Source: Hyphomonadaceae bacterium (GTDB lineage Bacteria; Pseudomonadota; Alphaproteobacteria; Caulobacterales; Aquidulcibacteraceae). Taken from it: a DNA stretch of 64,000 bases. The notes beneath the pieces are model-generated. The model saw only the letters and a list, made by a program, of their open reading frames with translations. It searched no databases and was not told the DNA's origin. A program made the position numbers and the translations under genes. Positions 44,932-51,845 of this stretch are shown here, piece after piece. The stretch is taken from contig JAHDXR010000004.1 of the NCBI GenBank assembly GCA_023384105.1, forward strand, positions 62,001 through 126,000. Reading direction: 5' to 3'. The first letter of the stretch is position 1; the number at the start of each line of letters is the position of its first letter.

Positions 44932-46128
44932 TTAGTTGCTTGGCGCGGACCTCGGCGCGCTCGGCAGCGACATGACGATCGTGCTGGCGCCTTCGACGCT
45001 CACTTCGGCCTGCAGCACTCCGCCCAAGCGGCGCACCAGTCCGCGCACGACCGCGAGCGAGAGCACCGTGTCGGCCCGCTCCGGCTTGACGTAGTCTTCC
45101 CGGACAGGATCGCTGAACAATTTGATCACGCGTTCGGCGTCCTCGCCGCGGCTGTGGAAAACGAAGTCGACCCAGTCGCCGGCCAGCGCCAGCCGCCGCC
45201 GCACGCGCACCGTCAGCGCGCCTTCATGAAGAAAGCGGGCGGCGTTGGCGGCGATGGCGTCGAGGCACTGGCGCAGCTTGTCCGGGTCGGTCGTCAGCAC
45301 GCCAACGTCATGATCCGGCTCGAAGTTCAGCTCGATGCGCTTGCCTTGAGCGTCGTTGCTCACGCTGTTGAGCGAGGCGCGGGCGAACGGCACGGGGTCG
45401 AACGTTTCGTGCGACAGCTCGTCCACATCGGTTTCGATCTTGGCCAGCGCCAGCAGGCTGTCGAGCAGATGCAGCAGTCGTTGCGCGGCCGACAGGATCG
45501 CCGTGACGTCGGCCGTCAGCGTGAAATCCTTGGGCAAGTCTTCGAGCAGCAGCTCGGCATAGCCGATCACGGCGTTGAGCGGCGTGCGCAGATCGTGACT
45601 CAGGTCGGTCAGCAGACGCGATTTCGCAGTGCTTTCGGCGCGAAGCTCTTCCAGATAGGCCGTAAGCACTACGCCCATGTCGAAACTGGCGCATTTCACC
45701 AGGGCGGTGGACAGCTTTTCCGCCGTCACGGCGTCGATCGCGCCCTGGGCGGAGGCCCTGAACACCTGCCGGATCAGCTCGTCCAGCACGTGCGAGTAGC
45801 CGCCCATGTAAATCCGGTGGTCGAGCTTGATTCGGGCATGCGCCGCGCCAATGCGCTTGGCGCGCTCTTCGTAGGCGTTGTCGAACACGCCCTGAAGCAT
45901 CATGCGCCAGTGACTGATCTGCGCATCCCTGGCGCGCACCAATTGCGGCTCGTCGGAGAAGCGTCCCAGGGCGGAGGCGTCTTTACGGATGTTCGCGTAG
46001 AGGCCGTCGACGGCAGAAATCAGCACATCGTCAAGCAGAGATCGATGAAACGCGAGTACGGCGGCTTCGTCATCGCTGAGCCTCATGAAAGGCGCGAGCC
46101 GTAGTGCCTCTGCGGGCGCGCTGTTCAT
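44932..46128 (-). CDS. Globin-coupled sensor histidine kinase (degenerate ATPase)
   Basis: 398 aa from MNSAPAEALRLAPFM. Residues about 15-160 are a protoglobin sensor domain: HWRMMLQGVFDNAYEERAKRIGAAHARIKLDHRIYMGGY, with His97 the likely proximal haem ligand. The HisKA H-box LSHDLRTPLNAVIGYAELL has His178. In the ATPase domain the N-box Asn295 (AIAANAARFL) is kept. The G1 box reads HSRGEDAERV instead of DxGxG, and the G2 glycines are missing (TVLSLAVVRGLVRRLGG). It may bind O2 or NO but have weak or no kinase activity. Confidence 0.82.
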   Translation of the reverse strand: MNSAPAEALRLAPFMRLSDDEAAVLAFHRSLLDDVLISAVDGLYANIRKDASALGRFSDEPQLVRARDAQISHWRMMLQGVFDNAYEERAKRIGAAHARIKLDHRIYMGGYSHVLDELIRQVFRASAQGAIDAVTAEKLSTALVKCASFDMGVVLTAYLEELRAESTAKSRLLTDLSHDLRTPLNAVIGYAELLLEDLPKDFTLTADVTAILSAAQRLLHLLDSLLALAKIETDVDELSHETFDPVPFARASLNSVSNDAQGKRIELNFEPDHDVGVLTTDPDKLRQCLDAIAANAARFLHEGALTVRVRRRLALAGDWVDFVFHSRGEDAERVIKLFSDPVREDYVKPERADTVLSLAVVRGLVRRLGGVLQAEVSVEGASTIVMSLPSAPRSAPSN

Positions 46129-46211
46129 GCCGTCTCCCCAGCCGGCCACCATTCACCGATGGTGGACAGAGAGTAGGCGCAGATTCGCGAGAATCAGCAG
46201 CGGGCTACCGA

Positions 46212-46225
46212 TTGATCTAGATCAA
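46212..46225. promoter_or_regulatory. Perfect FNR/FixK-type box
   Basis: TTGATCTAGATCAA matches the TTGAT-N4-ATCAA consensus of FNR, FixK and Anr regulators exactly. It lies 84 bp upstream of the kinase start and just before the proposed GTG of the Crp/Fnr gene, so it can control either or both. Confidence 0.8.
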
Positions 46226-46228
46226 CAA

Positions 46229-47050
46229 GTGAAAGAAACTGAAATCGCCGCGAGTAACGTGGCCGGTGAATGCGATTGCGCGAATGCGTTCACGCCCTAT
46301 GGAGCGCACGGCTTAAATTTCGAGAAGGCGTTTTCGGTGGTCCCCGGTGAGATAAATTGCGCGACGTGCCCTATCGGGCCGCTCACCATTTATGGCCCCT
46401 ACATCAAGAAGTGCCCCGAAGGCGTGTGCGCCCGACGAAAGGCTGTCCTGCGCGCGCGTCCGCACCAGCTGATCCAGAGCGCGGGCGATCCGGCGGACTG
46501 GGTGTTCACGGTGTTTCGGGGGTGGGCGCTGCGGTCGATGCATTTTCCTGACGGCCGCCGCCAGGTGATTTCGATCCTTCTGCCGGGCGACACCGGTCCC
46601 ATGGAAGCTGTCTGGGCCGACGGCCAGCGTTTCCACTCCTCGGTGCGCGCGCTGACCCACGTCATTATGTGCACCTTCAGCCCTGAGGACATGCGGGCCA
46701 TGGTCTTCGGCTCCGACGCGCAGCGCGCGCGGGCGGCCGAGATCGCGCTCCGGCACAAGACGCGGACCGAGCGCCGCCTGGCCGATATCGGTCGCCGCCG
46801 TGCGATCGGGCGGATAGCGCATCTGGTGCTCGACGTGGACGAAACGCTGCGCGAGCGCGGCATGTCGCGCGGCGACGAGTTTGACTTTCCGTTACGTCAG
46901 GAAGACATCGCCGACATGCTCGGCCTCACCAAGGCGCACGTGAACCGCACGTTGGTGGCGCTGCGCAAGCAGGCGATCCTCGAAATCAAGCAGGGCCGGC
47001 TCTACCTGCTCAACCGCCAGCTGCTGACGGAAATCGCCGCCGCGAACTGA
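46229..47050 (+). CDS. Crp/Fnr-family regulator with cysteine-rich N-terminus
   Basis: 273 aa from GTG 46229 (a GTG at 46259 is also possible); longer frames to 46085 would run back across the FNR box and the kinase start. Six N-terminal Cys are grouped CDC (15, 17), NCATCP (44, 47) and KCPEGVC (62, 67). This suggests an Fe-S cluster or redox centre rather than plain cAMP sensing. The cyclic-nucleotide-like barrel follows (WVFTVFRGWALRSMHFPDGRRQVISILLPGD). The C-terminal winged helix is FPLRQEDIADMLGLTKAHVNRTLVALRKQ. Confidence 0.82.
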   Translation: MKETEIAASNVAGECDCANAFTPYGAHGLNFEKAFSVVPGEINCATCPIGPLTIYGPYIKKCPEGVCARRKAVLRARPHQLIQSAGDPADWVFTVFRGWALRSMHFPDGRRQVISILLPGDTGPMEAVWADGQRFHSSVRALTHVIMCTFSPEDMRAMVFGSDAQRARAAEIALRHKTRTERRLADIGRRRAIGRIAHLVLDVDETLRERGMSRGDEFDFPLRQEDIADMLGLTKAHVNRTLVALRKQAILEIKQGRLYLLNRQLLTEIAAAN

Positions 47051-47202: not shown

Positions 47203-47706
47203 ATGAAACGTCTTCTCATCGCCGTCAGCGCGGCAGCCCTCTTCACCTCGCTCAGCGTGAGCGGCGCCGCGGCTCAGAACCGCACCGTGATCAGCCAGTT
47301 CGGCCGCGACAACGGCGCCGCCGCCTCGCAGCAAGGCGTGCGCAACGACGTCCGGATCGAGCAGAGCGGCCGCGCGCACTATTCGCGCGCCGTCCAGACC
47401 GGCCGGGACAATTTCCTGCGCATGAACCAGGGCGGCACCCGCAACCAGGCGGTCACCGAGCAGTACGGCAACAACAACCTCGCCGTCACCGGCCAGGAAG
47501 GCCGCCGGCTCGACGCCGCGATCTATCAGTCGGGCAACGGCAACATCTCCGGCATCGCCCAGATCGGCAACGGCTCCATCGCCACCACCGATCAGGCCGG
47601 CCGCAACAACACCACCGGCGTCATCCAGGTCGGCGACAACCAAGACGCGAGCGTTGTCCAGCGCGGCAACAACAACATCTCGGTTGTGATCCAAGGCGGC
47701 CCGTAA
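47203..47706 (+). CDS. Curlin-repeat amyloid subunit (CsgA-like)
   Basis: 167 aa with a signal peptide (MKRLLIAVSAAALFTSLSVSGAAAQ). About seven curlin repeats of the form Q-x-G-x2-N-x5-Q follow, for example SQFGRDNGAAASQQG, EQYGNNNLAVTGQEG, QSGNGNISGIAQIGNG and QVGDNQDASVVQRGNNN. Curlin repeats stack into extracellular functional amyloid. It is first of a three-gene curli set. No csgEFG secretion genes are in the window. Confidence 0.88.
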   Translation: MKRLLIAVSAAALFTSLSVSGAAAQNRTVISQFGRDNGAAASQQGVRNDVRIEQSGRAHYSRAVQTGRDNFLRMNQGGTRNQAVTEQYGNNNLAVTGQEGRRLDAAIYQSGNGNISGIAQIGNGSIATTDQAGRNNTTGVIQVGDNQDASVVQRGNNNISVVIQGGP

Positions 47707-47725
47707 CCGTGGGCTGCTCCGAACA

Positions 47726-47754
47726 GCGGAAGGGCGCTCCCTGCGCTCTTCCGC
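47726..47754 (+). terminator. Intercistronic hairpin in curli locus
   Basis: GCGGAAG-GGCGCTCCCTGCGCT-CTTCCGC, a 7-bp outer stem plus inner GCGC/GCGC pairing, between the first curlin and csgH genes. It has no U tract. It probably lets the major subunit be made in excess over the downstream genes. Confidence 0.55.
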
Positions 47755-47776
47755 CCTGCCGGAAGGAGGACATCTC

Positions 47777-48175
47777 ATGTCACGTCTATTGCTGATTGCG
47801 GGCCTTCTCGGCGCCACGGTCGCGTGCGCCGCCGCGAACGAGATGGCCGCCGAACCGGCGCCCACGCATTACGTCATGGCCGCGGCCGCGCCGTTTGAGC
47901 CTGCGTGCGACATCGAAGTCACCCGCATCGATGGCGGCGTCCGGCTCGAAGCGCTCGCGCCCGAGTTCCGCGCATCGCCCGAGCCGCTGGAATATCGCTT
48001 CACCGTCACCAAGCGGGACCGCGCCGGTTCGTCCGACATCGTCCAGGGCGGCGAAGTGGTCGAGCCCTTGCTCGGCTCGGTCGATCTCAGTCTCGATCGC
48101 GGCGCCGGCTATCGCGCGCGTCTCACGCTCCGCGACGGCGATGGCCAGGTCTGCGCAACGGAGGTTCGGTCATGA
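47777..48175 (+). CDS. csgH: CsgH-like curli assembly protein
   Basis: 132 aa with a signal peptide (LLLIAGLLGATVACAA). The mature beta-rich domain shows CDIEVTRIDGGVRLEALAPEF, then RFTVTKRDRAGSSDIVQGGEV and QVCATEVRS. This matches CsgH of alphaproteobacterial curli loci, an immunoglobulin-like periplasmic protein that restrains premature amyloid formation. Two Cys near the ends may form a disulfide. It is coupled to the next gene by ATGA. Confidence 0.8.
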   Translation: MSRLLLIAGLLGATVACAAANEMAAEPAPTHYVMAAAAPFEPACDIEVTRIDGGVRLEALAPEFRASPEPLEYRFTVTKRDRAGSSDIVQGGEVVEPLLGSVDLSLDRGAGYRARLTLRDGDGQVCATEVRS

Positions 48176-48609
48176 AGAAACTCGGCTTGATGGCGGCGGC
48201 CGTCGCGCTGGCGATGGCCGCCGCGACGCCGCCCGCTTCGGCGCAAGTGCTCTCGCGTCTGCACAACCGCGCGACGGTCGAGCAGCAGGGCCGCGACAAC
48301 GGCGCGGCGGTCGCCCAGAACGGGATCGCCAACCGCGCCGGCGTCTGGCAACGCGGCGTGGCGCATACCGGGGTCGTGCGTCAGGACGGCGCCAACAACG
48401 CCGGCGGCGTGATCCAGAACGGCGCCGCCAACACGGCCACCGTCACGCAGAACAACAGCAACAACCAGCTCTGCCTGATGCAGCGCGGCGACCGTCTGAA
48501 CGCCGACGTGACCCAGAACGGCAACGATGCGTCCTGGTACGTCCAGAGCAACGACCGCGTGCTGCGGATGCCGGCCGGCGGCCTCGTCTTCCGGATGTGC
48601 GCCGGTTGA
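48172..48609 (+). CDS. Second curlin-repeat protein (CsgB/minor subunit-like)
   Basis: 145 aa from MKKLGLMAAAVALAMAAATPPASAQ, overlapping the csgH stop. Repeats include EQQGRDNGAAVAQNGIANRAGVWQRG, RQDGANNAGGVIQNGAANTATVTQNN and MQRGDRLNADVTQNGND. The C-terminal part (NDRVLRMPAGGLVFRMCAG) is non-repetitive, and there are two Cys (NQLCLMQ and FRMCAG), unlike the first subunit. Such features fit a nucleator or anchoring subunit. Confidence 0.82.
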   Translation: MKKLGLMAAAVALAMAAATPPASAQVLSRLHNRATVEQQGRDNGAAVAQNGIANRAGVWQRGVAHTGVVRQDGANNAGGVIQNGAANTATVTQNNSNNQLCLMQRGDRLNADVTQNGNDASWYVQSNDRVLRMPAGGLVFRMCAG

Positions 48610-51262: not shown

Positions 51263-51544
51263 ATGATCCAGAGTTTCGCGGACAAAGAAACCGAGAAAAT
51301 CTGGTCAGGCCGTCGAAGCGGCAAACTGCCGACGGACATCCAGACGGCGGCGCTTCGGAAGCTGCGTTTGCTGAATCAGGCGCGTGTGCTGGAAGATCTT
51401 CGTGTTCCGCCCGGCAATCGCCTGGAAGCCTTGGCCGGCGGTCGCAAGGGTCAACATTCGATCCGTATCGACGATCAATGGCGAATTTGTTTTGTGTGGG
51501 AGAAAGGAGGGCCGGCCGATGTCGAGATCGTCGACTACCACTAA
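51263..51544 (+). CDS. higB: HigB-type (RelE superfamily) mRNA-interferase toxin
   Basis: 93 aa. It starts MIQSFADKETEKIWSG, the usual opening of the HigB/GraT group. It continues ALRKLRLLNQARVLEDLRVPPGNRLEALAGGRKGQHSIRIDDQWRICFVWEKG. The RIDDQWRICF strand is the family's catalytic/ribosome-binding end. It cleaves mRNA on the ribosome when not bound by HigA. The toxin gene comes first, as is typical of hig systems. Confidence 0.92.
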   Translation: MIQSFADKETEKIWSGRRSGKLPTDIQTAALRKLRLLNQARVLEDLRVPPGNRLEALAGGRKGQHSIRIDDQWRICFVWEKGGPADVEIVDYH

Positions 51545-51845
51545 CAAGGGCGCGCTGCTTCCGAATCCGACGCCGGGCGAAATCCTGTTCGAGGAGTTTC
51601 TGATTCCAATGGGGTTGAGCCAAAGCGAATTGGCCCGCGCCATCGATGTCCCGCCGCGCCGCATCAACGAGATCGTTCTCGGCAAGCGCGCCGTCACGGC
51701 AGACACCGACCTCAGGCTCGCGCGCTATTTCGGCATGTCCGACGGTTTCTTCCTCGGCCTTCAAGCGGATTACGATCTGATGGAGAAGCGCAGAGAGATC
51801 GAAGCCGTGATCAAGTCGATCACGCCGCGGTCCAACCGCCGCTAG
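51519..51845 (+). CDS. higA: HigA-type antitoxin (XRE helix-turn-helix)
   Basis: 108 aa from MSRSSTTTNKGALLPNPTPGEILFEEFLIPMGLSQSELARAIDVPPRRINEIVLGKRAVTADTDLRLARYFGMS. It is the HigA/VapI-type XRE fold, with SQSELARAIDVPPRRINEIV as the HTH. It overlaps the higB end by 26 bp and has its own AAGGAGG (51504-51510) inside the toxin gene. It neutralises HigB and represses the operon through the upstream dyad. Confidence 0.92.
   Translation: MSRSSTTTNKGALLPNPTPGEILFEEFLIPMGLSQSELARAIDVPPRRINEIVLGKRAVTADTDLRLARYFGMSDGFFLGLQADYDLMEKRREIEAVIKSITPRSNRR

Follow-up and report, generated by a model that had tools for sequence, protein, structure and literature searches.

The 64,000-nucleotide stretch of Hyphomonadaceae DNA analyzed here (the window) encodes a protoglobin fused to a histidine-kinase core with a degenerate ATPase and, divergent to it, a regulator of the Crp/Fnr family. 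Our preferred reading, held tentatively and at a little under an even chance, is that these genes form a genus-level globin gas module linked to low oxygen, in which the window protein would act as a RetS-like phosphatase or inhibitor and not as an autokinase. Conservation of the pair, the occurrence of two kinds of output beside related regulators, and the position of one relative's pair beside cbb3 oxidase genes suggest such a module. Against it count the one glycine of the DxGxG motif that still aligns, the 7 of 15 protoglobin loci (six of them short) without such a regulator nearby, the weak single box scores in other pairs, and the poor AF2 models of the kinase half and of the regulator. 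A first-pass annotation had suggested an O2/NO circuit whose globin protein may not act as a kinase; its observations largely hold and are partly confirmed, with corrections to the start, cysteines and recognition helix of the regulator, and its interpretation is partly supported.

Table 1. Features of the gene pair in window coordinates; residue numbers of the globin-kinase protein (Tyr44, His97, His178, Thr182, Asn295, Gly328) are counted from the Met at 46128.
Feature	Position	Strand	Remarks
Globin-HisKA-HATPase protein	44932..46128	minus	398 aa from Met at 46128; GGGGAG precedes that Met
Protoglobin domain	45643..46098	minus	Pfam PF11563, 97 bits (cut-off 25); Tyr44 and His97 kept
Proximal His97 codon	45838-45840	minus	
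HisKA domain	45430..45627	minus	Pfam PF00512, 64 bits (cut-off 26.9)
H-box SHDLRTPLN of the HisKA domain			Carries His178 and Thr182 (H-D-x-x-T)
Degenerate HATPase domain	44959..45291	minus	Pfam PF02518 (HATPase_c), 38.3 bits (cut-off 26.4)
Divergent intergenic region	46129..46336	.	208 bases with starts at 46128 and 46337
Perfect FNR-type palindrome TTGATCTAGATCAA	46212..46225	.	
Crp/Fnr-family regulator	46337..47050	plus	237 aa from GTG 46337
N-terminal cysteines C8xxC11 and C26xxxxC31 of the regulator	46358..46429	plus	
Winged-helix DNA-binding domain	46808..47032	plus	Pfam PF13545; recognition helix AHVNR

A globin sensor on a degenerate kinase core

The longest ORF of the globin-kinase gene is intact and spans 44932-46152 on the minus strand (406 aa), the Met at 46128 being a likelier start than 46152. 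The protoglobin with proximal His97 fused to a HisKA domain that the first-pass annotation had proposed is borne out by Pfam matches and by alignment to HemAT and AfGcHK, which agree: Tyr44 and His97 pair with HemAT chain residues 70 and 123, His97 also pairs with residue 99 of the AfGcHK globin chain, and both are invariant across a seven-sequence globin alignment. HemAT gives the best PDB alignment of the globin. The AF2 model is fair in the globin part (block means of 55-88 for residues 11-160) and poor elsewhere (whole-model mean pLDDT 56.8); Foldseek recovered both the AfGcHK globin, at a TMt of 0.79 (E 6.6e-3), and HemAT, at 0.73 (E 1.5e-3). As described in passages of PMC8697598, AfGcHK is a globin-gated autokinase whose proximal His is His99 and whose distal Tyr is Tyr45. 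The window protein has the makeup of a globin-coupled sensor, i.e., a protoglobin with proximal His and distal Tyr and a fused output domain, and is a probable haem-containing gas sensor. From its fold and the retention of Tyr44 and His97, its globin part would be expected to bind haem and to shift shape with O2, NO or redox state.

The ATPase had been described as lacking both the DxGxG motif and the G2 glycines while keeping the H-box and the N-box Asn. Alignment with three homologues (from genus genomes G011, G019 and G006) upholds this except at one position: Asn295 and the H-box are kept, and at the DTGIG motif the Asp and first Gly are gone (a two-residue gap), but Gly328 still occupies the place of the second Gly. 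Where the G2 stretch should have GxGLGL, the window protein has DTV-LSL, such that all G2 glycines are lost. Compared with an active HisKA kinase, the protein retains the phospho-acceptor His178 but, from the N, G1 and G2 boxes, the N box alone; it has instead the combination found in RetS, a degenerate HATPase with an intact HE/DxxT phosphatase motif. Among the kinase loci that the same search returned (L005-L030), all 26 had both His and DxGxG and 22 had the G2 pattern, a control that is one-sided because the script required a G1-like motif and the loci are mostly best matches of similar kinases.

The ATPase is the only part of the window protein that is out of line, since its globin and HisKA identities to the homologues are not lowered. 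Globin identities to G011, G019 and G006 are 46, 48 and 41% (47, 41 and 51% among the other three pairs), those of HisKA are 49, 45 and 55% (47, 56 and 46%), and those of the ATPase are 33, 28 and 27% (40, 36 and 33%). Because the kinase-type globins of G011 and G006 (i.e., two of the four kinase-type loci) keep all kinase motifs, the ancestral form was probably an active kinase; the globin part of the G006 frame contains an in-frame TGA. In G019 the ATPase boxes are intact and the H-box reads GDDLRTPLN, its His replaced by Asp. Directly after it, in the same orientation, a gene (L087:4684-5328) encodes a response regulator that is of NarL type by Pfam (GerE, and Response_reg at 30.8 bits, just over the cut-off of 30.2). 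Its receiver carries Asn in place of the Asp, so that this kinase and response regulator together lack both phospho-residues. That response regulator has no near-identical relative in the genus, its best other match there being 73.5 bits, and translated ORF lists place no response regulator next to the window, G011 or G006 globin-kinase gene. The acidic residue and the Thr of H-E/D-x-x-T are kept in all four kinase-type globins.

A PDB sequence search with the window protein ranked RetS first (1.3e-14), with DivL at 1.5e-13. In passages of PMC5992135, RetS has a degenerate HATPase, its HExxT serves as a transmitter phosphatase on GacS, and it also blocks GacS autophosphorylation; passages of PMC3510030 describe tests on HisKA proteins in which phosphatase activity depended on the Thr/Asn and kinase activity on the acidic residue. 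Non-kinase signalling, as the first-pass annotation had suggested, is supported by the degenerate ATPase, the retention of His178 and Thr182 of the phosphatase motif, and the match to RetS. Because the kinase half has lost ATP-binding residues, the protein probably signals by phosphate removal or by contact: its ATPase half is probably unable to bind or use ATP normally, which would preclude autokinase activity, and it is most likely a globin-gated transmitter phosphatase or inhibitor of another HisKA kinase or response regulator, acting perhaps through His178-Asp179-x-x-Thr182 in the way that RetS acts on GacS. The nearest kinase in its own genome (G000:C11:71346, 37% over residues 163-398; a hybrid with a receiver, by eye) is a weak clue to a partner, in that many relatives likewise have a long kinase of this sort as their best match. 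If a pseudo-histidine kinase carries a recognizable ligand domain, its input could be set by the haem ligand and its non-kinase output measured directly.

The divergent regulator and the FNR-type box

That a Crp/Fnr protein lies divergent to the globin kinase, as first annotated, is confirmed by Pfam matches to HTH_Crp_2 (53.1 bits) and cNMP_binding (36.7 bits). Its long ORF overlaps the globin gene, and ATG 46085 and 46127 fall inside that gene or right where it begins. Of the Shine-Dalgarno matches in the ORF, the best one (5 of 6 to AGGAGG) precedes GTG 46337; GC3 is 0.73, 0.56 and 0.65 over three stretches before this codon and 0.84 after it; and an aligned GTG occurs in the G019, G011 and G006 regulators (Shine-Dalgarno matches of 4, 5 and 4 of 6), yielding four kinase-paired regulators of 237, 236, 238 and 238 aa. 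Counter to this start, the G019 regulator has an ATG further upstream with a 5 of 6 match. GTG 46337 is the most likely start, well supported though not proven. Starting there puts the CxC upstream of the protein and leaves five cysteines (Cys 8, 11, 26, 31 and 112), such that the six-cysteine regulator originally described, with CxC, CxxC and CxxxxC groups, probably does not exist in that form.

Cluster ligands in E. coli FNR are C20, C23, C29 and C122. Cys 8, 11 and 112 of the window regulator align with Cys 20, 23 and 122, but the place of Cys29 is taken by Ile, so that the full set of an FNR [4Fe-4S] protein (three N-terminal Cys plus Cys122) is not present. Only the CxxC and the Cys122 equivalent are common to the four kinase-paired regulators; C26 and C31 vary (neither occurs in G011, one in G019). 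These two cysteines might stand in for the missing ligand, but they are not conserved in all four. The case for an FNR-type Fe-S cluster is weakened by the sharing of no more than the CxxC and the Cys122 equivalent, by the Ile, and by the exclusion of the CxC from the likely protein.

DNA contacts in the FNR/FixK class are made by the ExxSR residues of the recognition helix, which reads ETISR in E. coli FNR, ETVSR in the FixK-like protein of the same genome (236.8 bits on the FixK model, under the cut-off of 300) and ENLSR in its two FtrB-like proteins (one of which, scored by NCBIfam, reached 321.7 bits against a cut-off of 211). The window regulator has AHVNR, without the Glu and the Ser, and as judged from this alignment would probably not bind TTGAT sites. 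Its AF2 model was too poor to use (pLDDT 50.0).

The perfect FNR box that had been noted between the divergent genes is indeed present, TTGATCTAGATCAA, and dinucleotide shuffling of the 217-base region produced a perfect box once in 1000 trials. Ten TTGATNNNNATCAA sites, this one included, occur in the 3.67-Mb genome, as against none for the reversed control. Their neighbors, identified by translation and NCBIfam, include a gene of the NarK family, two FtrB-like genes, the second of which precedes hemN, a carbonic anhydrase and a carotenoid-type oxygenase (the NarK-family and hemN matches being under the curated cut-offs, and hemN cut by the locus end). Some of the ten are thus FNR/FixK-type operators in the sense of TTGATNNNNATCAA sites near low-oxygen genes, and several have no evident low-oxygen neighbor. 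In the other seven pairs, the best box scores (out of 10) are 8 in G011, 9 in G019a, 8 in G006, 7 in G019b, 8 in G005, 8 in G009 and 6 in G023; none of 1000 shuffles attained their sum of 54 (shuffled sums averaged 47.0 and peaked at 53), with single-pair shuffle P values from 0.017 to 0.997. These scores hint at a conserved box in the kinase-type pairs and give weak evidence of one in the rest.

Because the helix of the regulator is AHVNR and not ExxSR, TTGATCTAGATCAA is more likely read by the FixK- or FtrB-like proteins of the genome, and autoregulation through this box is made less likely by the missing Glu and Ser. We searched by eye for an operator shared by the divergent regulators and found none. 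The regulator is FNR-related but has neither the third N-terminal cluster Cys nor recognition residues of FNR type, and so probably binds some other DNA site; its first candidate targets are its own promoter and that of the globin gene. The FNR-type box would place the module under FixK- or FtrB-like regulators, in which case it may be expressed when O2 is low or nitrate is respired.

Conservation and context of the gene pair

Whereas a custom globin profile had found 9 protoglobin loci, the Pfam model recovered 15, in 10 of the 30 genus genomes. Nine are output-bearing, namely four of kinase type and five globin-MCPs (MCP and protoglobin were confirmed by Pfam for G019b, and the other chemoreceptor-type globins were assigned by motif). 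A divergent Crp/Fnr gene of the present lineage stands beside eight of these nine (8 of the 15 protoglobin loci), four being kinase-type and four chemoreceptor-type pairs, and the arrangement is divergent in every one. The conserved neighborhood that the first-pass annotation had asked for was therefore found. The ninth, a globin-MCP of the window's own genome (G000:C17), has no Crp/Fnr gene in the flanks examined or in a 10-kb gene list inspected by eye. Kinase-like and chemoreceptor outputs beside one regulator lineage offer a natural test of how sensor modules and Crp/Fnr proteins come to be linked. The remaining six protoglobins are short and apparently single-domain (frames of 185-235 aa; L031:1402-2025 in G000:C24, L157, L158, L159, L164 and L165, from the window's own and five other genus genomes); no Crp/Fnr match lies near them, three of the six loci ending at contig ends.

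The best match covers globin and kinase together in four of 61 genomes, i.e., G000, which holds the window, and G011, G019 and G006, whose proteins are 42, 40 and 37% identical to that of the window (the G006 match starting at residue 68). Their regulators, each immediately divergent, are 46% (G011), 50% (G019) and 48% (G006) identical to the window regulator. A kinase-type search of 60 family genomes (30 of which make up the genus) and 385 class genomes placed these three at 281.5-295.5 bits, all within the genus, with the next match at 123.1 bits, a gap inflated by the profile having been built from those three. A contig search for relatives returned one, JALHQO010000021.1 (a Hyphomonadaceae MAG), which is G011. 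Outside the genus, tblastn with 15 Crp/Fnr queries found none within about 1.5 kb of the globin at 46 loci (17 family, 29 class; the best 46 of a longer list, four of them cut by contig ends). In another genus of the family, G075 carries at L110 a different globin-HisKA with a 617-aa frame, SHEIRTP and DTGxG, and with no Crp/Fnr match nearby.

Kinase-type globins form one clade (100/100). In the regulator tree, the kinase-paired regulators group with a paralogue from the window's own genome (85/87), and the chemoreceptor-paired ones group together (89/92); the trees are midpoint-rooted with several forks open and are compatible with the pairing having arisen once or twice. The paralogue (G000:C13) adjoins an apparent TetR-family gene and not a globin. 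Two further genomes, G027 and G020, have related Crp/Fnr genes with a CxxCx6C N-terminus divergent to apparent OprB-type porins (L042, L043), no globin being seen there.

The kinase-type pair occupies four different contexts: glmM (by eye) and curlin genes in the window, XRE and FliG-like genes in G011 (by eye), the response regulator and cbb3 oxidase genes in G019 (ccoP and a copper ATPase by NCBIfam), and a protease and a CoxE-like gene in G006 (by eye). By eye, three chemoreceptor-type pairs (L088, L091 and L093 in G019, G005 and G023) lie in apparent chemotaxis clusters with a second chemoreceptor and CheA, and in two cases each with CheY and with an OprB-type porin. The curli locus reported to follow the window regulator is real to the extent that two curlin-repeat ORFs (Pfam Curlin_rpt; 47203-48609) lie 3' of the regulator on the same strand, but the link is not conserved: the curlin-repeat pattern, which picks up both genes of the window, has no match within 13-14 kb of sequence around the pair in the three kinase-type relatives, and we discarded it. 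Between and partly over the curlin ORFs is a small ORF without a Pfam match (47777-48175), and two small overlapping ORFs at 51263-51845 appear by eye to be a HigB/HigA-type toxin-antitoxin pair.

Alternative readings and known systems

Given that its ancestor was probably an active kinase, the window gene could be in decay, i.e., a globin kinase that has lost its ATPase, whose remainder is drifting and which has no function left. The CA domain is the least conserved part of the window protein, the G006 homologue has an in-frame stop, and the distribution of kinase-type loci is patchy, with 4 of the 30 genus genomes having one, all as decay would have it; but the 406-aa ORF is intact, the globin and HisKA identities are not lowered, the haem residues, H-box and Thr182 are kept, and the regulator is itself intact, its start being aligned and the box beside it perfect, and we regard decay as quite unlikely. 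Alternatively, the protein might be an ordinary O2-sensing kinase resembling AfGcHK and NmpU despite its divergent ATPase, or His178 might be phosphorylated in trans by another kinase. We hold this reading to be unlikely in either form, given that the G1 Asp and all G2 glycines are lost, His and DxGxG persist in 26 of 26 loci of the one-sided control and no response regulator adjoins the window gene, even though the H-box, the N-box Asn and one G1 Gly remain, the G011 homologue keeps all motifs, and AfGcHK, with His99 and Tyr45, is a globin-gated autokinase (PMC8697598, in the passages noted above).

The pairing itself might be purely regulatory, with the Crp/Fnr protein controlling the neighboring globin gene whatever its output and the two proteins sharing no pathway. 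NssR controls globin genes in Campylobacter in what may be a similar manner. That related regulators adjoin both kinase-type and chemoreceptor-type globins, divergently in all eight pairs, is what such an arrangement would produce; yet no operator of the regulator's own was found by eye, and the one site that recurs is FNR-like and fits a different protein, and we think this explanation improbable. Beyond the RetS-like module that we prefer, it is possible, though we incline to doubt it, that phosphotransfer has been abandoned by two routes, through the ATPase motifs in the window and through the kinase His and response-regulator Asp in G019, while the haem pocket, dimerization helix, phosphatase Thr and Crp/Fnr partner were kept, leaving a gas module that signals by contact and has an exchangeable output (kinase or chemoreceptor) beside one regulator lineage.

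Among known systems, AfGcHK of Anaeromyxobacter and NmpU of Myxococcus share the order of protoglobin followed by histidine kinase, and the proximal His is aligned in AfGcHK. According to passages of PMC11841059, NmpU is part of a system controlling the operons for cbb3 oxidase and hemN, a likeness to the G019 pair, which adjoins cbb3 genes. The window protein differs from both in its degenerate ATPase and in having no adjacent response regulator, and its Crp/Fnr partner has no counterpart reported for either in those literature passages. Among the matches listed in a search of open-licence papers, no title dealt with a globin pseudokinase or with the pairing of a globin sensor and a Crp/Fnr gene. 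RetS and DivL have in common with the window protein a HisKA domain with a non-kinase core. DivL is without the phospho-acceptor His, unlike the window protein, which keeps its H-box His. RetS keeps HExxT where the window protein keeps HDxxT, and it carries REC domains (both in passages of PMC5992135), whereas the window protein has a globin sensor and no REC, and its partner kinase is putative. With the FNR/FixK family, the window regulator shares the Crp/Fnr fold (by Pfam) and, as in E. coli FNR, the CxxC and Cys122 equivalent, but it has Ile at the place of Cys29 and AHVNR in place of ETISR or ETVSR. Finally, globin chemoreceptors of HemAT type have a chemoreceptor as output where the window protein has a kinase-like core, and the globin-MCPs of the same genus likewise adjoin related Crp/Fnr regulators.
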